DNA of 44,245 nt from Chloroflexota bacterium (GTDB lineage Bacteria; Chloroflexota; Dehalococcoidia; Bin125). The notes beneath the pieces were generated by a model. It was given only the letters and a program-made list of their open reading frames with translations. It had not been told where the DNA came from and searched no databases. This document shows, piece by piece, positions 13,373-44,245 of this stretch; positions within the stretch are counted from its first letter, which is position 1; every line of letters begins with the position of its first letter. Position numbers and translations under genes: made by a program. Location of the stretch: assembly GCA_009838915.1 (NCBI GenBank), contig VXQT01000014.1, forward strand, positions 1-44,245, in the 5' to 3' direction.

Positions 13373-13399
13373 TCAGCCACCGCGCGCTGCGAGCGCCTC

Positions 13400-14554: not shown

Positions 14555-14567
14555 GCCCAAATCCCTT

Positions 14568-14656: not shown

Positions 14657-14658
14657 GT

Positions 14659-14841
14659 CCAGGCAGGTCTCCTGGCTTGCGGGTGGAGGTCCTGGCCGAG
14701 CCCTTCCCATCGACGCTTGGGCGGTCGACAGTGGGCGTCGGCTCTCCATGCTGCTCACTCAATCGAGCGAGCCCCGCTTACAGTGGCGCTACCGCGTCGG
14801 AATCTCACCGACTTCCCTATTCTCCCGGGACGGGCACCTGG
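14659..14841 (-). ncRNA. Cobalamin riboswitch aptamer
   Basis: Read on the minus strand, the element contains the conserved core GGGAAGTCGGTGAGATTCCG, then CGCGGTAGCGCCACTG, whose B12 box GCCACTG is at 14781-14787. It closes with AAGCCAGGAGACCTGCC. The P1 helix pairs CCAGG (14837-14841) with CCTGG (14659-14663). It precedes the BtuF-like lipoprotein gene and starts about 20 bp after the stop codon of the PduX-like gene on the same strand, so it can also be transcribed by read-through. Confidence 0.94.
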
Positions 14842-14863
14842 ACGAATGCTGCTGCGCTTGAGC

Positions 14864-15775
14864 CTAGCACCGAACTTCGTCGGGCAACAGCCGACACCGT
14901 ACTTCGCTGCCGCCGCCGATAAGCCGATGTCGATGAGTCGCGCGCAGACCCAGAAGCCGTGAGCGCGCCTGTGCCGCAGCCCACTCCAACCGCTCGGCAT
15001 CTTCGTTGAACAACATTCCGACGACCGTGCCGCTGTGCGCAACGTTGACGCCAGTTGCGCCGGCCGCATCGGCCAATGCGAAGACCTGCGGCAGCTCCGG
15101 CTTGGCCAGTACATCTTGGTAGGTCGTTGCGCTCAGGCTGGCTCCGCGGCCGATCAGTTCGGCGTCGGCGGACGTGATCCCGGCCTCAATCAACGACAAC
15201 GACTCGCGGAAGCTATCCGCCCGGCTGCGTAGCGCTGCCGTGCGGTCGATGGCATTGAAAGCGACCGTATCTAGCTCTGCCTCAAACTCCAGCACCAGGA
15301 CGTCAATCGGCGGAGGCTCCCCCAGGCACCGCCTCACCCGGCCCGAGACGTGGTCGAACAGTGCGATGCCGGGCAGCATCGTTCCGTCGCTCGGTTCAAC
15401 CAACAACGCGATATCGGCTTCCAGCTCTGCATCCGGCGGTCGGCCTAGCGCGGCGGCGGTCGCGGCGACCGAGGCAACCACATCGGCGGTGCTGCTGGCC
15501 ATGCCCTTGCCCCGCGGAATCGGACTCTCGAGACTCAGCGCCGCGTCCAGGGCGTCGACCCCGAAGCGCTCGAGCGTCAGGGCCACCGCCCGAACCGCCT
15601 TCGGGCAGTCGCGCGGACCCCTGACTAGGCCTGTTCCATCGCTGAGCACAACCGTCGCCGTGGCATAGAGATCGATCGGGCACGTCACCATGACGTGTGC
15701 GTCAGCCGACAAGCCCTGGGCCAACTCCCCGCAGGAGGCCGGAGCCCCAGCGACGCCTCGTATCTCTGCACCCAC
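14864..15775 (-). CDS. pduX: PduX-like L-threonine kinase (GHMP kinase)
   Basis: A 303-residue GHMP-family kinase. The ATP-binding loop is SPIPRGKGMASSTAD (84-98), the N terminus has APASCGELAQG, and a C-terminal glycine-rich GTVVGMLF segment matches motif 3. PduX-type enzymes phosphorylate L-threonine to L-threonine O-3-phosphate, the substrate of CobD; cbiB and cobD 3-5 kb away make that assignment likely. The start is GTG at 15775 without a strong ribosome site. It is divergent from the MFS gene and lies upstream of the riboswitch. Other GHMP kinases, such as homoserine kinase, are alternatives, but the short N terminus and context favour PduX. Confidence 0.85.
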   Translation of the reverse strand: MGAEIRGVAGAPASCGELAQGLSADAHVMVTCPIDLYATATVVLSDGTGLVRGPRDCPKAVRAVALTLERFGVDALDAALSLESPIPRGKGMASSTADVVASVAATAAALGRPPDAELEADIALLVEPSDGTMLPGIALFDHVSGRVRRCLGEPPPIDVLVLEFEAELDTVAFNAIDRTAALRSRADSFRESLSLIEAGITSADAELIGRGASLSATTYQDVLAKPELPQVFALADAAGATGVNVAHSGTVVGMLFNEDAERLEWAAAQARSRLLGLRATHRHRLIGGGSEVRCRLLPDEVRC

Positions 15776-26639: not shown

Positions 26640-28427
26640 ATGAGCACCGCAGACGCAGCGAGCGCACGGCTAGCCGACAGTGAACAGGAGGCGAGGCCGG
26701 CCGGCTCTCAGGTGGGACGTCTGATTGCGCCGTTGAGACGGACGATGGTCGTCGCCTGTCTGTTGCAAGCGATCAGCTCGGTGTTCGGCATCATGCCCTT
26801 CATCGCCGTCGCAGAGATCGGCCGCGTGCTGCTGGCGGAGGGTGCGACCGACGAGCGCAAAGCCTGGCTAATCGCCGGGCTCGGCGCAGGCGCAATGCTG
26901 CTTCAGTTCATCTTCAAGATGGCCTCGGGCGCGATCACCCATTTGGCCGACGTCGACTTCCAGTTCTACCTTCGACGCAACATGGCCGCTCAGCTCAGCA
27001 CGGTGCCCCTGGGATGGTTCAACGACCGCAATGCCGGCGCGGTCAAGAAGGCGCTCGAGGACGACGTTTCGACCCTCCACCACATCGTGGGTCATTCCTA
27101 CACCAACATGGTCGGCGCGGTGGTGACGCCCGTCACCGCGCTGATCTACCTGTTCATCATCGACTGGCGGATGGCGCTCGCTGCGCTGATCCCGATTGTC
27201 GGCGGCGTCTTTCTCTACGCCTTCATGTATCGCGGCTTCAGTGAGAAGATGGTCGCCTACGACGAGGCGCTCGAGGACGTCAATGCTTCGTCGGTCGCCT
27301 TCGTCCAGGGCATCGCCGTGGTCAAGACGTTCGGCCAGGCCCGGCGCTCGTATCGTCAGTTCGTTGACCACGCAAACGGATTCGTCGACTACTTCTGGGA
27401 GTGGGTCAAGGGTCAGATTCCCTGGATCTCGGCCGGCAACACGGTGATGTCGCCGATCTTCGCCATGGTCGTCATCGTGGCGATCGGCCTGGGCATGACC
27501 GCCAGCGGCGCAATTGAAGCGATCGACCTGCTGCCCTTCATCATCCTCGGACCGAGCCTGGCCGCCGCCTTTCTGACGCTGTCCTTCGCCCAGAACGACC
27601 TGATGCTCGCCCATCGCGCCGCCGACCGGGTCGCCGACGTGCTCGATACGCCTTCGCTGCCCGAGGCAGAGCATCCACGCAAGCCGGTCGGTTCCCGTGT
27701 CACGTTCGAGAACGTCGGCTTCTCATACGACGGCGAAAACGAGGCGGTCCGCGGCATCGACCTCACCCTTGAACCCGGAACCGTCACCGCGCTCGTCGGC
27801 CCTTCCGGATCTGGCAAGAGCACGCTGGCCCGGTTGCTGCCACGATTCTGGGACACAACCGAAGGCCGCATCACGATCGGTGGCGTGCCGGTCGACGAGA
27901 TCAGCAGCGACGACCTCTACCGCCATGTCGGTCTGGTCTTCCAGGACGTGCAGTTGCTGCGCATGTCGATTCGCGACAACATCGCGCTGTCGCGGCCCGA
28001 TGCGCCGCTGGAAGAGGTCGTGGCGGCGGCCAAGACGGCGCAGATTCACGAGCGAATCCTCGAGCTGCCGCGCGGCTACGACTCCATCGCCGGCGAGGAT
28101 GCGCTGCTCTCCGGCGGCGAGGCGCAGCGGGTCTCCATCGCCCGCGCCGTCCTCGCCGACGCGCCAATCCTCGTGCTCGACGAGGCGACCGCCTTCGCCG
28201 ATCCAGAGGCCGAGGCATCGATCCAGGACGCAATCTCCGAACTAGTCGTCGGGCGCACGCTGCTGGTAATCGCGCACCGACTGCACACGATCGTCGGCGC
28301 CGACCAGATCTGCGTGCTGGACCGCGGGCAGATCATCGAACAGGGCACGCATGACCAGTTGCTGGCGCTCGAAGGAACGTACCGCCGTCTCTGGGAAGCG
28401 AGCCGGGTCGCGGAGGTAGTCGGATGA
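26640..28427 (+). CDS. ABC exporter-fold half-transporter, IrtA/YbtP-like
   Basis: A 595-residue protein with an N-terminal six-helix ABC exporter domain (about 30-320) and a C-terminal nucleotide-binding domain: Walker A GPSGSGKST, signature LLSGGEAQRVSIARA, Walker B ILVLDEATAFAD. Sequence around PLGWFNDRNAGAVKKALEDD resembles the half-transporters IrtA/IrtB and YbtP/YbtQ, which share the exporter fold yet import ferric siderophores. After the Walker B Asp-Glu the D-loop is FAD rather than LD. It has GAGGAG before the ATG and overlaps its partner by ATGA. Direction of transport and ligand are inferred from family resemblance only. Confidence 0.88.
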   Translation: MSTADAASARLADSEQEARPAGSQVGRLIAPLRRTMVVACLLQAISSVFGIMPFIAVAEIGRVLLAEGATDERKAWLIAGLGAGAMLLQFIFKMASGAITHLADVDFQFYLRRNMAAQLSTVPLGWFNDRNAGAVKKALEDDVSTLHHIVGHSYTNMVGAVVTPVTALIYLFIIDWRMALAALIPIVGGVFLYAFMYRGFSEKMVAYDEALEDVNASSVAFVQGIAVVKTFGQARRSYRQFVDHANGFVDYFWEWVKGQIPWISAGNTVMSPIFAMVVIVAIGLGMTASGAIEAIDLLPFIILGPSLAAAFLTLSFAQNDLMLAHRAADRVADVLDTPSLPEAEHPRKPVGSRVTFENVGFSYDGENEAVRGIDLTLEPGTVTALVGPSGSGKSTLARLLPRFWDTTEGRITIGGVPVDEISSDDLYRHVGLVFQDVQLLRMSIRDNIALSRPDAPLEEVVAAAKTAQIHERILELPRGYDSIAGEDALLSGGEAQRVSIARAVLADAPILVLDEATAFADPEAEASIQDAISELVVGRTLLVIAHRLHTIVGADQICVLDRGQIIEQGTHDQLLALEGTYRRLWEASRVAEVVG

Positions 28428-30193
28428 TCTTCAAACTGCTGCAACTTCTGCCCGCGTCCCTGCCGCACGGACGCACTCTGCGGGCAAACATCTTCGGCCT
28501 CGCGCTCGAAGGAATCCTGATGGGGGTCGGCTTCGCGTTGCTCGTGCCGTTGCTGCGCGCTACGTTCGACGGCGCATACGACACCGCCTGGGTCTGGCTC
28601 GGCGCGATGACCGGCGTGCTCGCCGCCTACGGCATCGTGCGCTGGGTCACCCAGATGCTCGGGTTCATCTCCGCCATCAACCTGGCCCGCAGCCTGTTCG
28701 AGCGCCTGGGCGACAAGATCGCGCAGCTTCCGCTGGGCTGGTTCGACGTCACGCGCGTCGGCAGCCTGGGACGGCTGACCAGCCAGGGCGTGATCGATGT
28801 GATGGGCGTCCCTGCCCACCTGTTGCGCCCGGTCGTCAACGCGTTTGTCACTCCAGTCACCGTGATCATCGTGATGTTCGCCTTCGACTGGCGGCTCGCC
28901 CTCGCCGCGGCGATCACGGCGCCGTTGGCCCTATTGGTCTATCGCTGGTCGACCGGACTCGTGGCTCGGACCGATCACCGTCACGACGACGCCAAGGTCG
29001 ACGCGTCCAATCGCGTGGTCGAGTTCTCGCAGGCGCAAGCCGTGCTGCGCGGGTTTGGCTACGCGACGCGCAGCTTCAAGCAGCTCGACGACGCCCTGCA
29101 AGAGCAACGCGACGCCGGCCGCGGCCAGCTGATGATCGCCGCGCCCGGACTCGCCGGATTCGTGCTCGTCGTGCAGATGGCGTTCACCGTCTTGATCCTG
29201 TTCGGACTCAACCTCGCGCTGGGCGGCGACATCGAAGTCGCCGAACTTCTGGCCATCCTCGTGCTCGCCGCCCGCTACGTCGATCCGATGATCGAAGCGG
29301 CCGACCTCGGCGGCGCGCTCAGGATCAGCCGCAACAGCCTGGACCGCATGGAAACGTTGTTCGCCACCGATCCGTTGCCGGAGGCCAACTCGTCGACCGA
29401 GCCGGCTGGCGCAGCCATCGAGTTCGACTCGGTCCGCTTCACCTACGAGGAACACACGGTCCTCGACGACATCAGCTTCACCGCGCCCGAGCGCACGATG
29501 ACCGCTGTCGTCGGCCCCTCCGGCGCCGGCAAGACCACGATCCTTCGCTTGATTGCACGCTTCTGGGATGCCGGAGCGGGCTCAGTACGGGTTGGCGGCG
29601 TCGACGTCCGCGACCTCTCGACCGAAGTCCTGATGCGGCAGATCTCCGTCGTCTTCCAGGACGTCTATCTGTTCGACGGCACGATCGAGGAGAACATCCG
29701 CCTCGGTCGGCCCGACGCGACCGACGCGGAGGTTCGGGCGGCAGCGTCGCTCGCGCGTGTCGACGAGATTGCCGAACGCCTGCCGGAGGGCTGGGAGGCG
29801 CGAGTCGGCGAGGGCGGCGCGCGGCTCTCCGGCGGCGAGCGCCAGCGCGTCTCCATCGCCCGGGCGATCCTCAAGAACTCGCCGATCGTGCTGCTCGACG
29901 AGGCCACCGCCGCGCTCGACCCGATCAACGAACGCGCCGTACAGCAGGCCCTGCAAGCCCTGACCCACGACAAGACCCTGGTCGTGGTCGCCCACCGTCT
30001 GCAGACCGTCCAGGCCGCCGACCAGATCCTCGTGCTCGACGAGGGACGGATCGTCGAGCGCGGCTCGCACGCGGATCTGCTGGAGTTGGACGGTCGCTAC
30101 GCCGCGTTCTGGCAAGAACGCCTCCGCGCCGCCGGCTGGCGAGTCACCGCCGACCAGCAACGACCCACCGCCGACAGAGTCCCGGCGGACTAA
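28424..30193 (+). CDS. ABC exporter-fold half-transporter, IrtB/YbtQ-like
   Basis: The 589-residue partner of the previous gene, with a membrane domain and an ATPase domain carrying Walker A GPSGAGKTT, signature LSGGERQRVSIARA and Walker B IVLLDEATAALD. The domain proper ends near FWQERLRAAGWR; the last 20 or so residues are polar and unconserved in appearance. The ATGA overlap implies an obligate heterodimer. It is the last gene of the plus-strand cluster. After its stop, the +1 frame stays open with coding-like GC-rich third positions up to a TAG at 30282 (reading TKPTGFTSYQKAIKRIRAG), so a frameshift in the tail is possible. Confidence 0.88.
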   Translation: MIFKLLQLLPASLPHGRTLRANIFGLALEGILMGVGFALLVPLLRATFDGAYDTAWVWLGAMTGVLAAYGIVRWVTQMLGFISAINLARSLFERLGDKIAQLPLGWFDVTRVGSLGRLTSQGVIDVMGVPAHLLRPVVNAFVTPVTVIIVMFAFDWRLALAAAITAPLALLVYRWSTGLVARTDHRHDDAKVDASNRVVEFSQAQAVLRGFGYATRSFKQLDDALQEQRDAGRGQLMIAAPGLAGFVLVVQMAFTVLILFGLNLALGGDIEVAELLAILVLAARYVDPMIEAADLGGALRISRNSLDRMETLFATDPLPEANSSTEPAGAAIEFDSVRFTYEEHTVLDDISFTAPERTMTAVVGPSGAGKTTILRLIARFWDAGAGSVRVGGVDVRDLSTEVLMRQISVVFQDVYLFDGTIEENIRLGRPDATDAEVRAAASLARVDEIAERLPEGWEARVGEGGARLSGGERQRVSIARAILKNSPIVLLDEATAALDPINERAVQQALQALTHDKTLVVVAHRLQTVQAADQILVLDEGRIVERGSHADLLELDGRYAAFWQERLRAAGWRVTADQQRPTADRVPAD

Positions 30194-31314
30194 GCCGGCC
30201 AAGGCCACCAAACCGACGGGCTTCACGTCGTACCAGAAGGCGATCAAGCGGATCCGTGCCGGCATCACTGCTCCGATTGCTTAGCTGACACTGCCGGCTC
30301 GGTCGTCGAGCACACTTACAGCGCCACCTCCCACATGAACGTTCGCAGTACAGTCCCTCTTGGCCTACCACCCATGACAAAATCGAGAACCTTCTCGTTG
30401 ACGTTCCTACTGAGCGCAGATTGCCCCGCTCCGAGCGTCCGAGCGCGCCCCGGACGACGAGGGTGAAGCACTTGCGGCGCGGGACCCATCGGCGGAATAC
30501 TGCGGCAACTCCCATGGCTGCGATGTGCGGTCAGACGCTGCCGCGAGGCTCGACCCTCGGCGGATCTATATCCGAATCCGCTACCAACTGTGGACGACTC
30601 GTGTAGACAGCAGCGCACTGGCAGTGAACCGCTCCAGATGAGCCGGCGGTCCGAGCAAGACGAACAACCCTAACGACCGCAAGGACGCAGGTATCTGCCG
30701 GCTAGGCCTCGCTCGCAAGGCTCCCTCGCCCCAGCTTCTCGGTGGCGGTGGGTCGCCACTGCCATCCTTTGTGTGAGAAGTAGCTTTGTAGGCGATACGG
30801 GGTGCAAAGCCCATAGGTGCTCCAGCGAGTGAGTTCGAGTCCGCTTGCCCGGGCTAGCGCTCGTCCCCAGTGCGGAGCGTGTCAGAGGTGATCGAATGGA
30901 CCGAGCTCAGCATGTCCTCGGAGCGGAAGTAGCGCGAGGCGCGCACTGGTGGGTCGAGCCGCAGTAGTTCCTAGCCGAGAGCGCGGGCCTGTGTGCCGGC
31001 AGGCAGCCGCCAGCCGTGAGATCGGACGCCGCTCGACGGCCTTCACGCGTCGCGCATGAACACTACCCAACAACACTGTCTAGGCACTCCGGCGCGTGGG
31101 CTATCCCTCCGCCGGAAAGGAGACGCACTATCCGTCAATCGAGTCAATGGTTCGTCGTCCACCACGTAGCTCTGCGCGATGCGAGAGTTTGGGCCTTCAG
31201 GGAGTGGGCTGTGCCCGTAATCAGCTACACCCTCATCGGCCCCAACTGTCGGCGTGCGCCAACTACTTCGAGCCGCTGAGTTAGGATTGTCCTCCCTACC
31301 CGAAACAAGAGCGA
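30194..31314. other. About 1.1 kb without a recognisable gene, at the border of the accessory region
   Basis: After a coding-like +1-frame tail to 30284, no frame on either strand gives a recognisable protein, and short open stretches have mixed, non-coding-like composition. No tRNA, transposase remnant, terminal inverted repeat or CRISPR is seen. The stretch marks the change from GC-rich, tightly packed genes to the lower-GC island. Degraded genes, an unrecognised RNA, or the regulatory region of the 1238-residue gene are possible contents. Confidence 0.6.
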
Positions 31315-34300
31315 GTGTTTTCTTCCGCCACCCTGGACCTCTCGCCTGCGGCTGCTCCTCTCAAGCAGTTTGACCTGCTCGACTTGAGTCAACGAGCAGG
31401 CGCCCTTCAACTGATGCCTGAAAACGGAGCCAACACCTTTCGGCTCGAGTTGGCGTGCAGCGCCCTGTTGACCCTTGTCGATGGGCCAGGACGAGACCAG
31501 ATCAGCGATTCACGGTGGCGGGCATGGTTGCGAAGCGGGCCGCTCGGGGACTCACGCATCCGGCTCTTGGAGGACCCTCCCAGTAATCCCTTTACCGAGA
31601 CCATCGCCTTCCACGGCGGTTCGTACACCGTGTTGCCGGGGACTGCTGAGCACGCGGTTTCTCACCTCCGAATCTTGCTGCAGTCCATTTACTTGGGCGA
31701 CTCAGGAGAATCACGGCTGTCTGACCAGTTCGTGGGCTCTGTCCGCGCCCTCACGCTCGCAATTCTCTCGCTTAGCCACAAATGCGCTCTCACAGCCGAA
31801 CTTGCGCGCGGTGAAGTCGGGGAGACTGTTCCATCGGAGGAAATGGTCCAACCAGGCAGCGATCGGCTTACGAGGCTCCGTGAAGCGGTGACGTTTCCTC
31901 TGGCGGAGCTCGAAGCACTCCTTTCGCGCGCGGGAGCCAATGTGGAAGACCTTGCGCCTCTAGTAGTAGACGCCGGCTCAAACCCACCCTCGACTGTCAA
32001 CACAGCGGACCTTCCCGTCTACTATCGCCCCATTCTGCGAGTCGAGGACAGCTTCGTGCTCTTGGCGCCAAGTTCACTGGTCGCGGCGCTGACGCATGCC
32101 ATCCTGAGCATGGCTCACGAGTCTGGCGACTTGCCTGTGCTTGCGGAGAGACTCCGCGGAACTTGGTTCGAGAGCGCCGATCGGGCACTCGAACTGCTTG
32201 GTTGCGATCTGGCCAGCGGACCGCAATCCTCCGAGGACCCGACACTCCCGGCAGTCCGAGCGCTGTATCACATTGACACCGACAAGGTGCTGGCACTGAT
32301 CCTGTTGACAGACCCTTTCGACTCTTTCGACCCGGCGTCAATCAATGGCGAGTGGTCTTCTGTGGATCTCAGCGAACGTGCTTGGGCGGAGATACTCAGG
32401 ATCGAAGAGATGTTGGCGGCGTTGACAACGCCGCCGAACGGCCTGCTTGCCTTGGTTGCAGTCGAGTCTCTCGGGCGAAGGTTCGCCGTCGGCCTGTCAG
32501 ACTTCCGGTACGCGAAGCCACTGCCTCTGTCTGTCAACGATCTTGAGGTGATTGCACACACCGAGGGCGGGAATCCGCTCCTGTTGTGGCAGTACGTAAA
32601 TGCCAGCGACCGAATGCGTGACGACGCCGCAGTGTTTTGTTCCGACCCCCTGGATGAGTTTGCGTTTTGGAGATCTAACGGTTTCACCTACTACGCGTCA
32701 GACGAAGCAAATCCGATCAGCGTTCTGATTGCTCCGGGCACGGCCACTGAACTGCGAAGCGAGGCGCGTGATGCTCTCGATCTGCACGCTCTGCCAGCGC
32801 CGACAGGCCCCGGCGTGGTGGAGGTCACACGACGGTTTCCCAATCAAGACATCCCAATCTACGTTCCGCGCGCCGAGGCGGTCCCGGTCCTCTCAATGGC
32901 GGTCGATGGTCTCCCACTAACGCTGTGGATCCAAGCTGCCCGAAGTCTGGAGGACCGACGCTTCGGGGGGCTGGTGCTGAGCCTCGTTGATTTCGTGGCC
33001 CATTGGATCTGGCAGTTTGAGGAGCACCTAGAGGAAACTCTCGAACGGCTAGCTACGCGCTTTGCCCGCCTGGTGATTCGAGTCGATCTCGTGGAATCAG
33101 ACGCCTGGTTTGGCGAAGGGCCGTCATCGGGGGAACCGCTGGCAGTCAAGCTCGACGAAAGTGGCTCACTAACCGTCACGTTCTTGGAGGGTGCAGCGGC
33201 GCATTTTGAGGGCAGCGACAACGCCGGCGAACGCGAGATTGTGCGCGCCATGTTGGAGTTGCTTCACGACTTCGGTCGAGATATCGCTATGGCGAACGGC
33301 CGTGTCTCTGACGAAGGGATCACTCAGGCACTCGAGAGCATCGCACCGCTCGGCCTCAAGAAGAAAGTCCTCTTCCTGGAGGGCGAGGCTGCCACCTATC
33401 TGGACGAGAGTGAGCTTCTCCCTTATCGGCCACTTCAACCGACAGCGACCGAAGAGTGGCGAGACAGCGAGCACGAACTGCTCGATCCTTTGGATTTGTC
33501 GCCGGGAGTGATTCCTAGCGATAGGCGTGTTGCGACACTCAATCAATTGGTCGCAAAGGGATACCAACGGTTCGAGCAGCTCATCGCTGCCCTGAGTCCA
33601 CGCGGACTGATGGAGAATCTCGTTGCAAACGGCGAGCGACTCATCTGGTTGGAGGAGCATCAACGTCGGCTGACGCCGACGCGGCTCGCCTGCTACAGCA
33701 CCGTCCCAAAGATGGTCGAGGAGTTGAAGCAAGACGGCTCGACCTTGGCGGCCACCGCAATCGCACACAGATTCGTGACCGAGTACGTAGCGGCTCAACC
33801 TCCAAATGGCATCCGGCCCTTCAGCCTCCAAGCCTACGATGAACTCATTGCCTTGGCTGTGCTCATAGTTCATTGGGGAAGGCAAAGCGATGCCCTTCAC
33901 TACGGCCTCGCCGATACCGAGCTCTCGGTGTTGGAATCTGGTCGACTTGGCAGTTTGGAGCCCGCATTTGTAGAGGCGCTCGACGACTACAGCGAACGTG
34001 CGTACACCGAGCAGATTGCACGGTCGTCATCGGCTTTCGCGTCAATGGTTCGAGACCCATCCGAACCTGTCCGCCAACCGCTGATTTCCATCGAGGAACT
34101 GGACCGGGCCACCGGAGCCGAATTTGGGCTCAGCACCACGGAGGTTGCCAGATTCATCCAGACGCTCATCGACATCGGGTCGGAACAGCGTGGGCCAGCC
34201 AAGCATTTGGCCGAGGCAGAAGTCCGTGAGCGCCTGTCCGTTGAGTTGGGTTGGACGCGAGACCAGATGGACACCGCATTTCGCCTTCTCAGCCTCGGTC

Positions 34301-35031
34301 CACGCGAGGCATATCTGCAGCCTCCGCCTGGATTCGAGCAACGCGATCTTTATCCGTGGGCCTTCAGTCGGCGCATGTCGCATCTCAGCCGCCCAATTCT
34401 GTTGAAGGAGGGAAACGATGGCTCGCGTGAAGCGTTGTGGGGCGCGAGGGCCTTGACTCGGACCAACGAGTACCTGTTCAGGCAGATTGTCGAGGGCAGG
34501 CTCGTAGCGACGAGCGACGAATTGCGCTCGCTCCAGGGACGTACTGCCAATCTCCTCGGTGAGATGTTCAATGACCGAGTCGCAGACCTGTACGAAACCG
34601 CCGAGGGATTAATTGTGCGTCGACGCGTTCGGCGCATTGGAGGCCGACGAATCCAACGAAAGCCCGGAGAGCCCCTAGGGGACATCGACGTACTGGTTGC
34701 CGACAGGCTGTCCAGAAGCCTCTCGTTGGTGGAAACAAAGAACTTCTCCACCGCAAGGACTCCCGCAGAGTTTGCAAGCGAAGAGAGGAAGCTGCGTGAG
34801 ACGCTGAAAATTCACTGTGAGCGTTGCGAATGGGTCGAAGAGAATCTCGGCGTCACCCTAGAAGGGCTCGGGATCAGCAATGGCGACGTGAAGGCCTGGC
34901 GGGTAGAACAGCTCGTGGTCGTGAGCAGTGAGGCTTTCACTCCCGGACTTCGCGATTTTCCGGTGCCGATAAAGAGTTTGTCGACGCTGAGGACCGAGGT
35001 TGGTGGAGCAGTTCACAACATGCGCCCATAG
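31315..35031 (+). CDS. Large protein of unknown function with C-terminal PD-(D/E)xK nuclease domain
   Basis: A 1238-residue protein I cannot assign to a named family. The first 1050 residues are mostly helical with beta segments and show no P-loop, helicase or transmembrane motifs. The C-terminal 180 residues carry a restriction-endonuclease-like core: a helix LQGRTANLLGEMFNDRV, strands after RRRVRRIGGRRIQ, then GDIDVLV with Asp1125, and LSLVETKNF with Glu1140 and Lys1142, spaced as in PD-(D/E)xK enzymes. This part probably cuts or binds nucleic acid. The start is GTG at 31315 with a weak purine stretch; ATG at 31414 is an alternative. Base composition is clearly lower in GC than the core genes. 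It faces an Avs2-like gene, so an anti-phage role is plausible but unproven. Confidence 0.7.
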   Translation: MFSSATLDLSPAAAPLKQFDLLDLSQRAGALQLMPENGANTFRLELACSALLTLVDGPGRDQISDSRWRAWLRSGPLGDSRIRLLEDPPSNPFTETIAFHGGSYTVLPGTAEHAVSHLRILLQSIYLGDSGESRLSDQFVGSVRALTLAILSLSHKCALTAELARGEVGETVPSEEMVQPGSDRLTRLREAVTFPLAELEALLSRAGANVEDLAPLVVDAGSNPPSTVNTADLPVYYRPILRVEDSFVLLAPSSLVAALTHAILSMAHESGDLPVLAERLRGTWFESADRALELLGCDLASGPQSSEDPTLPAVRALYHIDTDKVLALILLTDPFDSFDPASINGEWSSVDLSERAWAEILRIEEMLAALTTPPNGLLALVAVESLGRRFAVGLSDFRYAKPLPLSVNDLEVIAHTEGGNPLLLWQYVNASDRMRDDAAVFCSDPLDEFAFWRSNGFTYYASDEANPISVLIAPGTATELRSEARDALDLHALPAPTGPGVVEVTRRFPNQDIPIYVPRAEAVPVLSMAVDGLPLTLWIQAARSLEDRRFGGLVLSLVDFVAHWIWQFEEHLEETLERLATRFARLVIRVDLVESDAWFGEGPSSGEPLAVKLDESGSLTVTFLEGAAAHFEGSDNAGEREIVRAMLELLHDFGRDIAMANGRVSDEGITQALESIAPLGLKKKVLFLEGEAATYLDESELLPYRPLQPTATEEWRDSEHELLDPLDLSPGVIPSDRRVATLNQLVAKGYQRFEQLIAALSPRGLMENLVANGERLIWLEEHQRRLTPTRLACYSTVPKMVEELKQDGSTLAATAIAHRFVTEYVAAQPPNGIRPFSLQAYDELIALAVLIVHWGRQSDALHYGLADTELSVLESGRLGSLEPAFVEALDDYSERAYTEQIARSSSAFASMVRDPSEPVRQPLISIEELDRATGAEFGLSTTEVARFIQTLIDIGSEQRGPAKHLAEAEVRERLSVELGWTRDQMDTAFRLLSLGPREAYLQPPPGFEQRDLYPWAFSRRMSHLSRPILLKEGNDGSREALWGARALTRTNEYLFRQIVEGRLVATSDELRSLQGRTANLLGEMFNDRVADLYETAEGLIVRRRVRRIGGRRIQRKPGEPLGDIDVLVADRLSRSLSLVETKNFSTARTPAEFASEERKLRETLKIHCERCEWVEENLGVTLEGLGISNGDVKAWRVEQLVVVSSEAFTPGLRDFPVPIKSLSTLRTEVGGAVHNMRP

Positions 35032-35187: not shown

Positions 35188-38100
35188 TCAGTGGAGTTTG
35201 GTCCGCAGGCTCACTTCAACAGAGGAGTCTGCGTCCTCTAGCCCACCGACGCCGCTGATAGAGAGGATGGAATGCTCTCTTGGATTTTCAGCGCGGACGT
35301 TCCTGCCACCGAGCGCGGCCCAAACCAGAGAGAGGTCATGTCGGTCCAGGAACTCCCGCATCCCGCGCTCGCGAACGAGTAAGGCGCTTGGCCCAAGCTC
35401 AGAGCTAGAGGGGTCGCAGGCCAGTATGTCCTGATTGGGGTCAGTGAATGATGTCACTGGCGGGTGCCATCTGAGACCCGCCTGCGCCATCAACCAACTG
35501 CTAGGAAATGCCCTCGCAACAGTGCCTTCAAAGGCGCCGTCTCTCTCCCAGATGTACTCGGCCCATGTTGGCACGACGGGAGCCGGAGCAGTGCCGTTCT
35601 GGTCGTCTCTGGCTTCGACAACGATCGGGGAGGCGAGGGTCCCGGCCACCGCCGGATGCCACGGCCACTCCCCGTGGTAGACACCGAGGAGCGTAGGACC
35701 CTCTGGCATCCAGCGGCCGTTCCAATCTTGCTCCCGAGCCCACGTCAGAAACTCGATATAGGAAGCGCTTGGGACGAGGTAGCTACGAATCTGCAGCCAC
35801 TGGTCCCCCCTATCACTCAAGCTGGCCGCAGTCTGAGTGGAGGGTGATTCGGCCCAGCTGTACATACCGAAGAGGGTGAGCCACTTGCAGTCGTCCGAAT
35901 CCCACACGCTCAGCAGAGACTCAAGATCGGCAACACCAAAGGGATTTCGATCTCCTTGCAGCCACTGTGTCCGCTTGTCGTCATCGTCAAATGGCCCAAT
36001 CTCGCCTGTTGGTGGTCGCCACCAGGTGTGTCTCGCTGGGTCGTCTCCTTGACCGGAGGGTTCTATCAGCAGTGACGGATCGATATCCCGCAAGGAGATT
36101 TGCCATGGTCCGTCAAAGTGATCCGAGTCATCGTCGTACATCGGCCTGTATCTGCAATGGTCGGCGATCTTGCCTGCTAGTTCGTGGAGAGCGATCCACT
36201 GGTACTTCTTGCCAATCCGCTCCGTACGCCCAACCGGAGCGTACCTGTCGTAGGTTGCAACGCGGTCGTCGTACTCGCCAAAGCGTTTCGAGGTCCACCC
36301 GAGCTCCCGAACCCTACGGAGGATCCATCGTGAGGCTTCGTCGCTGTGCCACATGACCGGTCGGCTCGGTACCGGGTCCGTCCGGACACTCGTCGGTCCC
36401 CCGAGCTTCGCCAGCATCTCGTCGATTTTCGGAATGCCAGTGCTCCTGCCTTGGGCTGTGTTGGCTCTGGTCCTAACGCTCTCTCGGCGTTCGCGGAGCC
36501 TGCGACGCTGATTTGGGGCGACGAACTGTCGGACGGCAGGCGCGACTTCATACCTGTTGAAGTCACCCATTTCTCCCAACGAAAACCACAGAGGCCTGTG
36601 AGTTTCTCGTGGCGCACGGGCCTCCAAAGTCTCCTGCGAGGGAATCCGCACGGGCCATGCGCTGTTGTATGGAGGCCGGAACAACTTAGGGTCAAGGTTC
36701 GGCAAAGATGCACCGCGATGTATCGCACACTCGATGACACCGCGCGCGTAGTCCCGTAACATCACATGCTGGTGGGGCGCTCCGCTAGAGAAGACCTGGC
36801 TGTACACGCGCTGGGCGAGACCTGACAGTTCACGCACATCGGAACATCCGAGGGCACAGCCGTAGGCCACCGCGAAGAGCCGCTCCGAGACGTAGGGATC
36901 GTCGACCTCACGGAAATGATGGAGCAAGAGGATCAAGACCGGAATCCGCTGCCGGAGGAGCGACACAAGAGCCTTCGTCGCTTGGTCTCTGAGACCGCGA
37001 TTGGAAGCCGCCAAACACCAAGTGAGTGTCAGTGAGGCGAGCCAGACGACCTGGATTGAGGCCGTCTCGTGCTGAGGAGAGAGGCTCCAAGTGATGATCC
37101 TGTAGATCGCGCTGCTGCGAGCCTCGCAGCTATTGATATGAATCGTCCAATAGGCGTCTCTATCCGGGAGTTTCATATGACGCAGCTGTTCATCGAGTGT
37201 GCTGGCATTGAACGGGTGATCCTGATGGAACGCCAGTTGCAGCTTGGACTCAAGCACTTGATCGTGGAAGTCACCCGCGCTGCCGGAAATCGACTTCAGG
37301 TAACTGGACAGAGCATCGCCGGCACAGTCCTGAGGCCTTCGCCACGGGAGACTACTCAGCACCGCGCCCTGGATACCCAGAGTCTGCGGGTTGTCAACAA
37401 GCTCGAACAGCTCGCGCGAGCGACTCTCTGGAAGCTGAACCGCGAGCGCCTCTAGGAGGCCCGATGACTGCCGGAAGAACCAGGGCTTGTTGACCAAATC
37501 GACGACTCGCGATTCGAGATCGTTGTCATCCAAGTTGTCGAGCAACCACGCCGCCTGCAAGTGGTCTCCGAGTCGCTGGTAACTCAGCCGAACCACTTCT
37601 CCTTCCTTGCCGAGATCTGTGACAATCACCGACTCGTCAATGAGTCCCCTGGCCAAAGAGCTACTCCATTGACGGTTCGGCAGCAGTTCCTCGCAGAGTT
37701 CCTCGAACTCGCCTATTGGTACAAAGTCGACGTTCTCTCTGATCATCGCCTGTGCGATTCGATGCACAGCCTTCTCGACTAGATTCTTGTCCTCTCGGAA
37801 GTCGCAACGGGTCCGGTCTGCTAGCAAGCCGTTGACCGCCGAGATGTAACCGCTGAATAGATCCGAAACACCCGTGGAGCCTGGTGGTAGCGTCTTCTCA
37901 CCGCGAAGACTTAGGGTTTTACACAGGAGTTTGAGGAACAACGGATTGGAGTACTCCGGCAACAGGAGCGGAAAGTCTGGAATCTCGATTCTCCAATGAC
38001 TAAAGAATATGGATGCAGCTTCGAACTCCAGGCCTGCAAACCCGACGTGTTTGCTCTCTGTGAACCCAAAGTCCTCGGGGCTGGAACCGCCCGCGTTTCG

Positions 38101-39540
38101 CGGCAGCACTTCGCTGACGTAACTCGACCGGCAAGACACAGCAACAGCCAGATGCGAATACTCACTCACCTCGGCAGCGAGGCCTCCGAGGAAACTGCGT
38201 ATCTTCTGTCGGCTCGGAACGTCATTGACCGCGTCCAGCAGAAGTAGTGCCCTGCAACCTGCGACTCTGCCTGCCATATCCAATGTGGCCAGAAACTCGG
38301 GCATTGTCATCCCTGCAAGGTCAAGCTGTCCGAAGATTGCATTCCGGGGATTGCCATCGTCGAGTTCCTCGCCGAGTAGCAACACAGTGGGGCGGCCCTC
38401 CGCTAGTCGACGAGCAGCTACGTCGCAAAGAAGGTGGGTCTTGCCGGTTCCCCAATCTCCTGTCAAGAACAAGGCGGGGCGAGATGCCAGCCTGGCCGTA
38501 CGCGAATTGATGAACTCCTCCATCTGGTACACGGCCATGTAGATTTGGTGGGCCTTCCGGCGCAGCTCAGCAATGACATCAGGCGTCCCGCTAGCCTTCG
38601 ACCCCTGCGAAGGTTCATCTCGGTCATTGTCGTCATTCTCATTGTCGTAGAGCTTCTCCAACACTCGGTCCAGCAACTGTCGAAGGTCGGAGAGCTTCGC
38701 CATGAAGGGCTCCCAGTTCGGCGCAGCGCCGCCGAGAGTCTCAGCCCCTTTCCAGGTAGCGAGGTAGTCGGCAGCCGCTGCGGCCAGAGACTCTACATCT
38801 GACTGAGTGTCTGTTTCCAGCTCGGGCTCCTCAACCGAGCTCGGCCAGCGCAGGCTAGCTCTAGCGAAGTCCTCGACGAGCTTTGCGAGCTCCTCTTCGA
38901 AACGATCCGTCAAGCCCAATCCGTCGAAGGCAAATCGAATAGGCACGTCGACGTTAACTTCTTCGGTGTAGCGTGGACCCGCCTTGTTCCTTGCTTGTTC
39001 GTAGCGCCTCTGCAGCCACTCCTGACTGAACAAGATTCGCTTGTCGAACCAATAGAACACATGCCCAACATGTTCCTCTCGAAGCAAAGCGTCAATGAGC
39101 TGAGATTCGCCAGCGAATCGGAACTCGATCGTGCGTCCCTCGCTTGCGGCCAGCGATGTCCATGTCTCGAAGGCCCTTTCAAGCTTCCTCTTTGCGCTCT
39201 CTCCGTGCTGACCCGCCGGCGGATTCATCGGCAACACAAACGTGTATCGAGTCAGGCTGGGGCAGCTCGCAAGCGCGGTCTCAAACGACTCTCTCATTTG
39301 CTGCAGTTCAGCATTGTCAATCCTGAAAAAGTACTTCGCTTGCCAACCCCAGATCGCCCCGTCCTCCAACTCGATGTACGCCTCGATTCCGCTATCCGGA
39401 CTGCCGTGCCGACTCACCTTCCTGCCTCTGGCATCTTCATCCAACCACGGAATGAGTTCGACTACGAGTTCCTCAAAGCCTCGTTGGACGGAGCCTTCGT
39501 GCTCCCGGATTGAGCGAAAGTCGATGGTCGGCAGCGTCAT
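35188..39540 (-). CDS. Avs2-like STAND NTPase with N-terminal nuclease domain (putative anti-phage sensor)
   Basis: About 1450 residues in three parts. Residues 1-180 form a Cap4/DUF4297-like PD-(D/E)xK nuclease: GFEEL with Glu23/24, GSPDSGIEAY with Asp49 and Glu53, and GWQAKYF with Lys69. Residues 340-680 form a STAND-type NTPase with Walker A GDWGTGKT (361-368), Walker B ALLLLDAVND (Asp436) and sensor-like VAVSCRSSY (Arg471). The rest is a long helical and beta C-terminal region expected to recognise a phage protein. In known Avs2 proteins, binding of the terminase large subunit triggers tetramerisation and DNA cutting. The match is by motif order and spacing, not a search. ATG at 39540 is chosen because the nuclease domain starts there (MTLPTIDFRSI); no strong ribosome site is seen. 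Confidence 0.8.
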   Translation of the reverse strand: MTLPTIDFRSIREHEGSVQRGFEELVVELIPWLDEDARGRKVSRHGSPDSGIEAYIELEDGAIWGWQAKYFFRIDNAELQQMRESFETALASCPSLTRYTFVLPMNPPAGQHGESAKRKLERAFETWTSLAASEGRTIEFRFAGESQLIDALLREEHVGHVFYWFDKRILFSQEWLQRRYEQARNKAGPRYTEEVNVDVPIRFAFDGLGLTDRFEEELAKLVEDFARASLRWPSSVEEPELETDTQSDVESLAAAAADYLATWKGAETLGGAAPNWEPFMAKLSDLRQLLDRVLEKLYDNENDDNDRDEPSQGSKASGTPDVIAELRRKAHQIYMAVYQMEEFINSRTARLASRPALFLTGDWGTGKTHLLCDVAARRLAEGRPTVLLLGEELDDGNPRNAIFGQLDLAGMTMPEFLATLDMAGRVAGCRALLLLDAVNDVPSRQKIRSFLGGLAAEVSEYSHLAVAVSCRSSYVSEVLPRNAGGSSPEDFGFTESKHVGFAGLEFEAASIFFSHWRIEIPDFPLLLPEYSNPLFLKLLCKTLSLRGEKTLPPGSTGVSDLFSGYISAVNGLLADRTRCDFREDKNLVEKAVHRIAQAMIRENVDFVPIGEFEELCEELLPNRQWSSSLARGLIDESVIVTDLGKEGEVVRLSYQRLGDHLQAAWLLDNLDDNDLESRVVDLVNKPWFFRQSSGLLEALAVQLPESRSRELFELVDNPQTLGIQGAVLSSLPWRRPQDCAGDALSSYLKSISGSAGDFHDQVLESKLQLAFHQDHPFNASTLDEQLRHMKLPDRDAYWTIHINSCEARSSAIYRIITWSLSPQHETASIQVVWLASLTLTWCLAASNRGLRDQATKALVSLLRQRIPVLILLLHHFREVDDPYVSERLFAVAYGCALGCSDVRELSGLAQRVYSQVFSSGAPHQHVMLRDYARGVIECAIHRGASLPNLDPKLFRPPYNSAWPVRIPSQETLEARAPRETHRPLWFSLGEMGDFNRYEVAPAVRQFVAPNQRRRLRERRESVRTRANTAQGRSTGIPKIDEMLAKLGGPTSVRTDPVPSRPVMWHSDEASRWILRRVRELGWTSKRFGEYDDRVATYDRYAPVGRTERIGKKYQWIALHELAGKIADHCRYRPMYDDDSDHFDGPWQISLRDIDPSLLIEPSGQGDDPARHTWWRPPTGEIGPFDDDDKRTQWLQGDRNPFGVADLESLLSVWDSDDCKWLTLFGMYSWAESPSTQTAASLSDRGDQWLQIRSYLVPSASYIEFLTWAREQDWNGRWMPEGPTLLGVYHGEWPWHPAVAGTLASPIVVEARDDQNGTAPAPVVPTWAEYIWERDGAFEGTVARAFPSSWLMAQAGLRWHPPVTSFTDPNQDILACDPSSSELGPSALLVRERGMREFLDRHDLSLVWAALGGRNVRAENPREHSILSISGVGGLEDADSSVEVSLRTKLH

Positions 39541-39916
39541 GACGCAAATCTTACTGGGCGGATGCGACACAGAAAGTGAGAGCGCAAGATTCTGTGCCCT
39601 GGCGGAGGCCAAGGTCTGAGGTCGTAGGCCACTCGACATCGACAGGGCATGGAGGTGATTGACAACGAAGTTTGCACTCCGAAATCGCAGGGTTCGGGAC
39701 CATGCGCAACGCACTCCAAGCTGTGCACTTCGGTGTGCGCCCAATCGCGGTGAGCACGCTGATTGCCTGACGAGCAACCAGGCAGATGGCGTTCACTGGG
39801 CGCCGTCTCTGGACAGGCGCTGCGCACTGAGCCGTTGCTGACCGCCAACATCTCCTGCGTCGCAGCAGTCGTTTAGGGGGCTGCTCACGTTTCAGCCGAA
39901 ACAGGGCGAGCCTGCT
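39541..39916. other. Upstream region of the Avs2-like gene
   Basis: These 376 bp separate the Avs2-like start from the stop of the membrane protein on the same strand. The frame of the Avs2-like gene stays open for 79 codons upstream but lacks domain-like sequence. Two small hairpins are visible: GCCTG/CAGGC around 39760-39780, and GTTTC-AGCC-GAAAC near 39889, the latter just after the membrane-protein stop and possibly part of a terminator. No RNA gene was recognised. Confidence 0.5.
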
Positions 39917-41719
39917 CTATTCGGCGCCACCCGATTCCAGCCAATGCACAATCTGTTGGCGCGCTTCGTCCGCGACTTCGCCCTCCAAGTCGTCGACGCG
40001 CAGCAGCGAACTCTCTAGTCCACGCCACAGGATCTTCATCCGCTCTGACACGACAAGGTCGCCAATCGGAAGCTCTCGGATCTTGTCGCCAACTCCAGGC
40101 TGCATGGCAAGCCACAGATATCCGACGAGCACATATCCTCCGCCGCCGAAGAGATTTGCTGATGCTCCGTCGCTCCTGTCTCTCCGTTCGTCAGTCCAAG
40201 TTCCCCAGGTTTGCGAGAAGCCAGGGGGATGATCAATCAACAAGACGGTCGCAGCGAGCTCCACTGTGACCGATGCAAGGCCATGTCCGCCAGCCGATTG
40301 AGTGCGGATTCGGTCCAGCACCTGTCCTTGATTGAGTTCGATCGCGCGTCCAACCAACGCAACGATGCTGAGCAACGCTGCTTCCTGCACCGAGTACTTG
40401 CCCTCGTTCTGTGTCGAGAACTCGTGAAACTCGCTTCCGCTCAACTGCTGGTGTGGGACCGCGTAGCTCACCAGATCAGCGACCCATTTCGAAGCCTCGG
40501 CACCATCGTCGCTGCTCAACAGAAGGCCGCCATAGCGGTGCATTGCGCCAATCAGACTGATCGAGGCAACTCGCCTCATCTGCTGATTCAGTGGATAGCT
40601 TGTGTGGTACCGCACCTGCCTCGCGGAATAGAGCATGAGTGAGGTGGCCCTTCCGGCTACTTGACTCATGCCCTCCCTAGTTGTTTCTGACTCCGCCAAC
40701 TTGTATTCGCGAGTGAGGCTCGCCAATGCCGCATCCAAGGCGTCATCGTTGCCCCATCCAACCGCGTACCGCACCCACGTCTGCCTCAGATAGTGGAGAC
40801 GTTGAGAGTGGTCTGACAGGCGCTCGCGAAGACACAGCCGGTCCAATCGCTCTAGGCCGAACACAAGCTCTGTGCCTGTTGGCCATGGCATTGGAAACGC
40901 CGAGGCCGTGGCCTGATCGAGTTCGCCGAAGTCAAGCCGACCGTCAGCGATTCCGACCTTCAGGGCTTCCTCAAGCGTCACCATGCTGTCGGCGAAGTCT
41001 GTGAAACGCGCACTTCGGATCGCCATCTCGGCGTCGTCAATGATTCGACCTACTGCGCGGGCTGCCACCTGCGACAGCTCGACCTCTGCAGTTCCGTCAA
41101 TAGACTTCCCATCAGCGAATGCGCGACCGAGGCGAGCATAGGCCCGAGCTGCCGACCCGATGGCGTCGACCGTGACGTCTCTCTTGTAGGAGCGGTATCG
41201 GTTCGGACGAAGAACGCGCAGTCCCCACAGGGCGAATCCGATAATCACGAGCACGCCAGCGGTCATCGAGCCGCCCGCGAAGAGAATGATGTTTGGCGTC
41301 GCGCACTCGCCGCAAGTCCGAGCAAGGAAGTACGCAACCCCGGTCCCAAGGGTCAATGCCGCGGTGAGAGTGAAGACAGGCCGGACAAACGCCCTTCTCA
41401 AGAACCACTCGTACAGCGGGTCTTCTAACTCCTCGCGTCGCTGAACGCTCCCGACAATGAATGCAACCACTGCAAGCGAGATTGCCATCATCGCCGCCTG
41501 CGCCTGCAGAACCGTCTCGACAATGGCCCTTGTGGTTGTGGGGCTCTCTGGCAATACATCCAGGTCGCCGAGCGCCATTGTCAGTGTCAAGCCGCCTGCG
41601 ACCAAGAAGACTGCTATGACGAGTGAGGGAAGGGTTCCCGTCCAGAACGCCAACGAGGCAACTCTCCTCAGCTGGACTTTCGACTCGGACCGATTGGACA
41701 TCGCGTTCTCGACGAGCAC
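39917..41719 (-). CDS. Four-helix membrane protein with large cytoplasmic domain, unknown function
   Basis: A 600-residue protein. Four hydrophobic helices lie in the first 170 residues (about 28-50, 66-92, 112-133 and 143-168), the second containing [20 protein letters not shown]. Roughly 430 mostly helical residues follow without a recognised enzymatic motif; this part ends with segments such as [19 protein letters not shown]. The layout loosely recalls DUF2254-type membrane proteins, but I do not claim membership. It lies upstream of the Avs2-like gene on the same strand with a 376-bp gap. Some defence systems use membrane effectors, so it could be one; it could equally be unrelated cargo. 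The start may be GTG at 41719 or ATG at 41701. Confidence 0.65.
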
Positions 41720-41800: not shown

Positions 41801-41942
41801 CTGGGGCTAGCCCTCGCGCTTCGAATAGGCAAACCCGAACGCGAGGCTGCGATGGATTCGGATCTCGGTGACGCATCGCGCAAGGGGCGCCCCTACGCTC
41901 GCTGAGCGACCGGTTGGACCTGTAGAAGGGAAGAGGTTGGCG

Positions 41943-43463
41943 ATGGCGTTGAAGCGTTCTCGCACGTCGGGGAAGCGTCCGCGCGTCGCGGAGATCGGCT
42001 TGAGTGAATCCCAGCTGGCCGAGATCCGCCCGCACTGCGGAGACCTCAGGCCGGCCCAATCCGTAAGCGCATATCTCTCCCGTTTCAGCTGGACGGAGAC
42101 GGATATCGTCGTCGCCGGCGGCCTCAACCAGACCGAGATTGACGCCGGCGTCAACGTGCTAACCATTGGCCCGATGTCGCTTGGGCTCAGGCAGCGGAAA
42201 GGCAAGCACCCCGCGGAGCCGTTCCGAGAGCGCGTGAGGATGGACATGCAGAATCGGGAGCGAGGGGTGGGGGTCGTGTTCGGATGCCCGCCGATGTACA
42301 GCGGTCCGGCGGAGCTGCTGGCCAAACAGCTGCGCGCGTTGGATGAGCCGCCGCCGACCGTCACCGTGACCGATGCGGGCGAACGGCTGCGACAACCCAT
42401 CGTCGAGACCTCAGGCGGCTGCCCGGTCGCGTTGCGGCTGCATTGGGCGGGCCGTGTCTGGGGCGGCTCGCAAGCGGGTCCGACCGTTGATGTCGTGGCC
42501 CTGCACCTGCCGAGCCAAGCGGGCCTCTTGCCCTGGTTCAGAGCCTTCTTGACTGACATCGGCGAGTTCGATCCTGAGCGCGTGCCCGCGCCGCCATCCC
42601 TACTCAGCGAACCATCCCACTGGTACACGCCCAAGCAGGACCAACTCGCGAGGGAGATCGATGAGGTCGAGCGCGAACGAGGACGCTTGGAGAGTCAACA
42701 ACAACGCCTCGAAGAGGAGCTAGCAAGCGAGGGGCGACGGGCCGACGAGACCGTTCTGCGCACGATCTGTGAGGACGGCGATGAGCTGGTCGACGCGGTC
42801 GGCGAGATGCTGGAGGAGATCGGCTTCGCAGTCCAGCGGATGGACGACGCGAAGCCGCCGCACGAGGCGAAACACGAAGACCTCCGGCTGCGGCTCGCGA
42901 GCCGACTTGATTGGGAAGCCATCGTCGAGGTCAAGGGATACACCAAGGGCATCAGAGCCAAGGACGCCCAACAGGTCCGGATGCACAGGGAGCGCTACAA
43001 CCGAGATACAGGACGAGAACCGAGCCTGACGATCTGGCTGGTCAACCCGTGGCGCGAGATGGAGCCCTCAGACCGCCCCAGTCCCGACAAGCAGATTGAC
43101 GAGAGCGCCGAGATTGTCGGTGCCGTCTGCCTGCACACGACGGACCTCTACCTCCTGTGGAAGTCGCTCAAGACCGGCGACAGCTCCCTGGACGAGATTG
43201 TGCGGCGGTTGGTCGAGGCCGAGGCTGGACTGTGGCGGCCGTCCTTGAATCCCCGAAGCTCCGCTGCCATTCCGCCAGCGTCGTCTTTTCGATCATTCAT
43301 CGTTACGAAAATCCTCCTGCCTTCCAGACCACGATCGAGACATGTGCACTTCGTCCAAATTACACAGCAATTCGACGGTCGCCGCGTTACGCTGGAGTCC
43401 GGGAGGGAGCCTGTGATCGGCGCGGGCCTTGAGCCCCGGCGCAGTAGCGCACCGGTCCTGTGA
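41943..43463 (+). CDS. Coiled-coil protein with predicted PD-(D/E)xK nuclease domain
   Basis: A 506-residue protein of unrecognised family. Residues 1-230 form an unknown domain with a VFGCPP motif. A charged coiled coil (about 232-268, REIDEVERERGRLESQQQRL) connects to a domain with GFAVQRMDD, HEDLRLRLA, and AIVEVKGYTKG, in which Glu312/Asp313 with Glu329-x-Lys331 fit a PD-(D/E)xK active site; the strand SLTIWLVNPW follows. From about residue 437 the sequence loses coding character and overlaps a long inverted repeat, so the last 70 residues may be read-through after a lost stop. GGGAAGAGG precedes the ATG. It may be a nuclease effector or restriction-like enzyme; no methylase is near. Confidence 0.65.
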   Translation: MALKRSRTSGKRPRVAEIGLSESQLAEIRPHCGDLRPAQSVSAYLSRFSWTETDIVVAGGLNQTEIDAGVNVLTIGPMSLGLRQRKGKHPAEPFRERVRMDMQNRERGVGVVFGCPPMYSGPAELLAKQLRALDEPPPTVTVTDAGERLRQPIVETSGGCPVALRLHWAGRVWGGSQAGPTVDVVALHLPSQAGLLPWFRAFLTDIGEFDPERVPAPPSLLSEPSHWYTPKQDQLAREIDEVERERGRLESQQQRLEEELASEGRRADETVLRTICEDGDELVDAVGEMLEEIGFAVQRMDDAKPPHEAKHEDLRLRLASRLDWEAIVEVKGYTKGIRAKDAQQVRMHRERYNRDTGREPSLTIWLVNPWREMEPSDRPSPDKQIDESAEIVGAVCLHTTDLYLLWKSLKTGDSSLDEIVRRLVEAEAGLWRPSLNPRSSAAIPPASSFRSFIVTKILLPSRPRSRHVHFVQITQQFDGRRVTLESGREPVIGAGLEPRRSSAPVL

Positions 43464-43503: not shown

Positions 43504-44245
43504 TCAGTGCTCACCCGTTCCTCCCCACCGCCCCAACGTGAGACCACGCAGCAGCCAGTGCAGGCACCAAGTCAGCGGAAGCTGCCAGCGCAGCCGTCTC
43601 AGCGCCCGTCGCCGCCAGTCCAGTTCACGTTCGCGCCTTCGCTCGCCCCAGGGCGCATCGGCCGGGGGCGGGGTCAGTCCGAACACGCCGATCAGCCGAA
43701 GCTCCAGCTCCAATCGCCGCCCCTCCCCCCGCAGCCAATCCAGGGTGTAACGCGCCTGCTTGCGGTCCGCCCAGGCCTCGCGCCACTGGACGACCTCCTC
43801 GGCCGCCGCCCCGTAGACCTGCTCCTCGCCCGGTTCGGGGTGTTCGGTAACCAGCTCGGGGAAGACGCGGCGTGGCACCGGCACAGACCGCTGTTGCTCC
43901 ACCGCGTGTCCGGCATCCACCTCGTGCGCATCGTCCACATCGCCCTCACCGCCACCGTCATCGGGCCCCCGTGAGACGCGGCCCTCAACCGCCTCCACTC
44001 GCTCGCGCAGCGACGCCAGTTCGACCCCGAGCTTGTCCACAGCTCGCCGCCACTCCTCCGCAGGTTCCTGTAGGAGGGCCTCCTCCCCACCCCCCTGTTC
44101 GTCCGGCACAGGAGCAGTCGCCTGGTCCTCCAGCTCCTCCTGTTCAGTCTGTTCGCGCAGGTACTTCTCCAGCGCCTGGCGCATCCGCCGGCTGACGTGC
44201 CGCTCTTCGAGACACTTGGCCGCCGTGCGGTAGTTGACGCCCAGC
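43504..44245 (-). CDS. HTH-like/coiled-coil protein, N terminus beyond the window
   Basis: The frame is open through the right edge of the window. Its first visible residues, LGVNYRTAAKCLEERHVSR, then RRMRQALEKYL, look like the recognition part of a helix-turn-helix followed by a basic helix. A glutamate-rich region and a coiled coil (DKLGVELASLRERVEAVEGR) follow. After a low-complexity Gly/Asp linker comes an alpha-helical part with ERRRERELDWRRRALRRLRW and a hydrophobic end (LPLTWCLHWLLRGLTLG) that could touch the membrane. It may be a DNA-binding regulator. At least 246 residues lie within the window; the start is not visible. Confidence 0.6.
   Translation of the reverse strand, partial: LGVNYRTAAKCLEERHVSRRMRQALEKYLREQTEQEELEDQATAPVPDEQGGGEEALLQEPAEEWRRAVDKLGVELASLRERVEAVEGRVSRGPDDGGGEGDVDDAHEVDAGHAVEQQRSVPVPRRVFPELVTEHPEPGEEQVYGAAAEEVVQWREAWADRKQARYTLDWLRGEGRRLELELRLIGVFGLTPPPADAPWGERRRERELDWRRRALRRLRWQLPLTWCLHWLLRGLTLGRWGGTGEH

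Follow-up and report, generated by a model that had tools for sequence, protein, structure and literature searches.

Organization of the locus

The window, by which we mean the whole 44,245-nucleotide stretch that was analysed, carries an accessory gene of 1238 codons in a low-GC island, read as a single intact frame without internal stop from 31315 to 35031 on the plus strand and followed by an Avs2 gene of opposite orientation (Table 1). The initial annotation had delimited the same open reading frame and placed its motif residues at Asp1125, Glu1140 and Lys1142, and both are borne out here, as is its remark that the gene is poorer in GC than the core genes (0.58-0.61 over 31-35 kb versus 0.63-0.69 over 1-31 kb). 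On the left, the island begins around the end of an ABC transporter gene (28424-30193) with 85-95% identity in four same-genus genomes, in all four of which DNA similarity ends at the same edge; the contig itself ends at 44245, placing the right end of the island outside view.

Table 1. Coordinates of features at the Upx-like locus (window positions)
Feature	Position	Strand	Evidence
Left edge of accessory region	30144..30201	.	Alignment to the orthologous ABC transporter ends in 4 same-genus genomes
Leader, no assigned gene	30317..31314	.	978/998 positions the same in near-identical copy L002
Upx-like gene, 1238 aa	31315..35031	+	GTG start; Upx profile, structure and alignment matches
PD-(D/E)xK nuclease domain (predicted), C-terminal, about residues 1070-1228	34522..34998	+	AlphaFold2 secondary-structure order; VIA-align Z about 10
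GDIDVLV, residues 1122-1128, catalytic Asp1125 (codon 34687-34689)	34678..34698	+	D1125 invariant in alignments
VETKN, residues 1139-1143, catalytic Glu1140 (34732-34734) and Lys1142 (34738-34740)	34729..34743	+	Both invariant
Avs2, STAND NTPase with N-terminal PD-(D/E)xK effector	35188..39777	-	PADLOC, NCBIfam; likely start codon 39540

A search of genome contigs returned one locus, L002, which is 97% identical to the window over 30317-31711 and diverges to the left, where a ubiquitin-like operon (Multi_ubiq, Prok-E2_E and a JAB-ThiF protein) and an RmrA-like regulator are found. The contig of L002 is titled Holophagales and is putatively binned in genome G446. Over 130 comparable codons L002 differs from the window by six silent and seven changing substitutions, one of the latter being a TAG at residue 112, and because the coverage given in the contig title is low (2.9), neither decay nor selection is readable from the stop codon or the codon differences.

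Further to the right, the window encodes a 600-residue protein (39917-41719, minus strand) with no family match and, by eye, hydrophobic N-terminal stretches, and a 531-residue protein (41868-43463, plus strand) with a PD-(D/E)xK-looking stretch (VEVKG). Both recur at about 80% DNA identity elsewhere in this genome, on contig C11, where the cargo they flank is different: a type III methyltransferase together with a weak match to a type III restriction gene, and a UvrD/GajB-like helicase. The two proteins may belong to the island backbone or form an undescribed defence pair. The interval 43504-44184 (minus strand) belongs to a dispersed repeat, with many occurrences of related DNA among same-genus genomes; contigs C34 and C11 both end inside or beside this repeat.

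Homology to Upx

The defence libraries assign the window protein to the surroundings of Upx: it is matched by the PADLOC Upx model PDLC02221 (3.1e-39) and by the NCBIfam model Upx_antiphage NF042954 (7.9e-46, 155.8 bits), the latter with an equivalog cut-off of 1900 bits, on account of which we place the protein on a branch of its own, homologous to Upx but distinct from it. Among solved structures, HMMER gave a sole good match, chain A of PDB entry 9wuf (1.6e-27, residues 30-281 and 544-1197), released on 2026-02-11 under the title "Cryo-EM structure of Upx" with the molecule named "Restriction endonuclease". The entry and the Upx family are tied together by L058, a Upx protein from a viral contig that passes the family cut-off (2117.7 bits) and matches 9wuf end to end. 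Profile-profile comparison (hhalign; six proteins of the window branch versus three Upx-side proteins, two of these from partial genes) aligned residues 9-1230 collinearly with Upx at a probability of 100 and an E-value of 8.2e-58. By these comparisons of sequence, the window protein and Upx, a known anti-phage protein, are distant homologues along their full length.

Like Upx (1240-1272 residues), the window protein is the product of a single gene, is collinear along the whole chain and ends in the same C-terminal PD-(D/E)xK motifs (GDID...ExK). It differs from Upx in being only 22-25% identical, in lying beyond a phylogenetic split with 100/100 support, and in belonging to a branch that includes one relative organised as a tandem pair. 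A function in common with Upx would thus have to hold across 22-25% identity.

A Pfam scan of the protein gave nothing above chance, and with this library no DNA-binding, SRA, PUA, HNH, CARF or NTPase domain was found; a STAND or helicase body is ruled out, since Pfam detects no NTPase family. The initial annotation had seen no known motif in the more than 1000 residues upstream of the nuclease, which holds for Pfam and fails for the defence libraries and the PDB, where Upx matches residues 30-281 and 544-1197; Pfam is without a model for such a protein, which explains the earlier impression. The suggestion made there of an uncharacterised defence protein survives in its second part, the protein being very probably a defence nuclease, and not in its first, as the protein has a known relative matching it along its whole length. 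An undescribed system is ruled out by the Upx profile matches and by PDB 9wuf.

Nuclease domain and fold comparison

Asp1125, Glu1140 and Lys1142 are invariant in all nine rows of one alignment and all eleven of another, the window protein included in each, from which it follows that the GDIDVLV/VETKN motif is not a chance resemblance. Outside the nuclease, R481, E823, S858, D859, G938, R1019 and P1027 are invariant in 9/9 rows of the smaller alignment, which includes two partial genes lacking the N-terminal third.

An AlphaFold2 model of residues 530-1238, built from three sequences, is weak overall (mean pLDDT 53.9), with ten-residue means mostly of 65-86 over the final 160 residues. In this C-terminal part, the predicted order of elements is alpha-beta-beta-beta-alpha-beta, with D1125 on one strand (model residues 595-601, D596 = D1125) and E1140 and K1142 on the neighbouring strand (606-613, E611 = E1140, K613 = K1142), both strands being flanked by helices at model residues 539-565 and 621-647. 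The model of the N-terminal part (mean pLDDT 42.4) was unusable for a fold search. Foldseek returned 9wuf as its sole match below 0.001 (9.1e-17), with poor global superposition (TM 0.29, rmsd 32.8). VIA-align likewise ranked 9wuf first (Z 15.9, rmsd 18.2 over 377 residues of the same low-pLDDT model); next came CRISPR ancillary nucleases and XisH, with Z about 10 and rmsd 2.6-2.9 on the C-terminal domain. As modelled, the C-terminal domain is thus of the PD-(D/E)xK fold, complete in its core, in agreement with the nuclease originally proposed from the motifs. The likeness to Can2/Card1/Cdn1 and to XisH (Z 8-10) extends over about 115 residues of the PD-(D/E)xK core; in contrast to the CRISPR ancillary nucleases, no CARF domain is found in the window protein by Pfam, and the resemblance is restricted to the catalytic domain.

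These fold matches also bear on whether the protein might be a type IV-like restriction enzyme, with a body that binds modified or foreign DNA directly and a C-terminal domain that cuts it, without a separate phage trigger. FokI, BstEII, Nt.BspD6I and McrBC chains are among those that VIA-align matched to the nuclease domain, and the name given to the 9wuf molecule points the same way. However, the resemblance to restriction enzymes covers the PD-(D/E)xK core only, CRISPR ancillary nucleases score equally high or higher, and the Pfam search detects neither the DNA-recognition domains listed above nor an NTPase, and we consider this possibility unlikely.

Distribution and phylogeny of relatives

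Within the genus of the window and its kin, the gene is present in one of 61 genomes and absent from 14 genomes of the same genus; across the phylum it is found in one of 400. Short matches in two of these 400 (L004 and L005) were unconfirmed by alignment A1. In the class of the window genome, two of 197 genomes matched, the second through a 39-bit partial match. In the phylum of G446, four of 297 genomes matched: G643 with two full-length genes, G446 with the L002 fragment, and two weakly. In the class of G643, matches came from 3/162 genomes, one of which (G852) holds a decayed copy beside a transposase. No claim of ours rests on the weak or partial loci L027 (G551), L028 (G676) and L094 (G098) or on L093 (G852), which is decayed and flanked by a transposase, with the exception that L027 is present as a row in both the 9-row and the 11-row alignments.

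We take G643 to be acidobacterial, Holophagales (the title of the L002 contig, from G446 of the same phylum) belonging to Acidobacteriota. Its two genes lie head to tail with a gap of five bases (L025:15291-18947 and 11569-15285), both retain the catalytic trio, and thyA and DHFR genes are found nearby. Immediately beyond thyA and this gene pair, a dTDP-4-dehydrorhamnose 3,5-epimerase is fused to a C-terminal TIR domain (L025:9687-10703, minus strand).

By tblastn, 6 of 72,556 plasmid records matched. Two Deinococcus plasmid proteins are 29.7% and 28.0% identical over 97-98% of the query, and shorter matches came from two Salmonella records, Sinorhizobium and Bosea. The Upx gene on the plasmid of Sinorhizobium meliloti (L010:6694-13476) is broken into pieces with IS66 genes in between. 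A search of phage records with the window protein found no relative, and first scans of viral contigs were empty; one locus from IMG/VR, L056, came with alignment A3 and is 30% identical over residues 8-1225, recovering only itself when used as query. This full-length relative (L056:5027-8779, plus strand) has genes for a phage-type exonuclease and a GroES-like protein in its neighbourhood, a context that suggests carriage by a phage or prophage. A comparison of Salmonella Upx DNA with E. coli gave no match.

In a tree of 11 proteins, with every row kept and the L027 row on a very long branch, a group formed by the window protein, the two Deinococcus proteins, the acidobacterial pair and L056 is separated from Upx, Salmonella, Sinorhizobium and Bosea by a split with 100/100 support; the branching order inside this first group is largely unresolved.

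The initial annotation had proposed a survey of the neighbourhoods of homologues for enrichment beside known defence genes, and such a link is found in part: the gene is accessory and several relatives adjoin defence genes, the Bosea relative for instance having in its vicinity a caspase-helicase gene as well as genes with TIR and caspase annotations. Not all relatives conform, as seen at the D. aetherius and acidobacterial loci. At the D. aetherius plasmid locus, metal-transport and other genes are present, with no recognised defence gene among the annotated neighbours, two of which were scanned. This locus, together with the occurrence of relatives on plasmids and one viral contig, might favour a PD-(D/E)xK nuclease that serves housekeeping or a mobile element, for instance in repair or plasmid maintenance, instead of defence. 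The rarity and accessory status of the gene (1/61; 1/400), homology throughout its length to an anti-phage protein and repeated proximity to defence genes argue against such a role, which we judge quite improbable.

Relationship to the neighbouring Avs2

The facing gene, originally described as Avs2-like, is recovered as Avs2 by PADLOC (PDLC02164, 1214 bits) and by NCBIfam (982 bits, just below the cut-off of 1000); it has a solved relative, 9o4e, and carries the effector motif PDSGIE...WQAKY. Avs2 resembles the Upx-like protein as a defence gene product that also bears a PD-(D/E)xK nuclease, and differs from it in that this nuclease is N-terminal on a STAND NTPase, the two proteins matching different families. 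In the window, 156 bases separate the stop codons of the convergent genes. In Deinococcus QL22 the arrangement is tandem, an Avs2 (NCBIfam 228 bits) preceding the Upx-like relative with a gap of 405 bases. The QL22 Avs2 (L007:10351-14577, plus strand) is annotated from 10732 with a frame extending to about 10351, and probably starts earlier than annotated. Its effector motif reads QPGVE...WQCRW versus PD[AGS]G[IV]E...[WH]Q[AV]K in the other Avs2 proteins aligned (nine-row alignment, one row without this stretch), with loss of the conserved Asp and Lys.

Adjacency of the two genes in two phyla exceeds what a typical genome would give, and could indicate that Avs2 and the Upx-like protein operate together in a single system to which the latter contributes its nuclease as an extra effector. 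The deviating effector motif of the QL22 Avs2 fits this proposal, as does the scarcity of strong Avs2 in the phylum: at an E-value of 0.001 the model matches 100 of 400 genomes, with more than 200 bits in seven among the matches listed. However, six of these seven genomes have no Upx-like gene, and among eight genomes or records of relatives searched, Avs2 is present in two, the window's genome and QL22 (of the eight, G446 has just the L002 fragment and G551 just the distant relative); it was not found in G643 or in three other relatives' plasmid records. Moreover, the gene order differs between the window and QL22, and the window Avs2 retains PDSGIE...QAK. Fixed co-occurrence and co-orientation are thus contradicted by the window, QL22, the phylum sample and the gene pair of G643, and we hold a single two-gene system to be highly improbable. 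A common operon is ruled out in the window by the convergent orientation and is not general elsewhere. Genes of defence islands tend to lie together in any case, the two occur in differing orientations, and each can do without the other; we read them as island neighbours. Very little credence is given to a related proposal, drawn from the Avs2 adjacency in two phyla, the QL22 Avs2 with conserved catalytic-site residues lost from its nuclease and the acidobacterial tandem self-pair, in which the window branch would be a lineage of separate function and would lend its nuclease to neighbouring sensors as an effector common to several defence systems instead of a closed single-gene system.

Proposed function and significance

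Gao and colleagues reportedly introduced Upx as an anti-phage gene in 2020. Our literature search found no mechanistic paper on Upx, though a structure has been deposited. In PMC10855318 Upx is listed among nucleic-acid-degrading systems, and according to PMC12629846 its occurrence in Pseudomonas is confined almost wholly to one island hotspot.

We consider it very likely that the window protein belongs to the Upx family as an anti-phage nuclease acting on its own, on a branch apart from the described Upx; a function in defence, taken by itself, appears highly probable, and a triggered DNase activity is anticipated with moderate confidence. Most likely, the protein would act as an autonomous phage sensor with a large body restraining a C-terminal DNase. 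Beside the homology, the intact catalytic site and the accessory context described above, we infer nuclease activity, DNA as its target and triggering by phage. The body, of about 1000 residues and with no known Pfam motif, would hold the nuclease in check, and an encounter with a component of the phage or a structure in its DNA would release the C-terminal domain to cut DNA; infection would be stopped through destruction of phage DNA or death of the infected cell. That the body lacks an NTPase or signal-domain family points to direct recognition of the trigger by the body, through contact with a phage protein or a DNA structure.

The gene, probably functional, is thus a divergent relative of a defence system already described as consisting of a single gene, constituting a new branch and not a new system, by which the Upx family is now extended to the window's phylum, Acidobacteriota and Deinococcota. 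Should it serve as an accessory effector of Avs2, the Upx-like protein would matter more. A deeply diverged branch with few residues kept outside the nuclease narrows where sensing or autoinhibition may lie.
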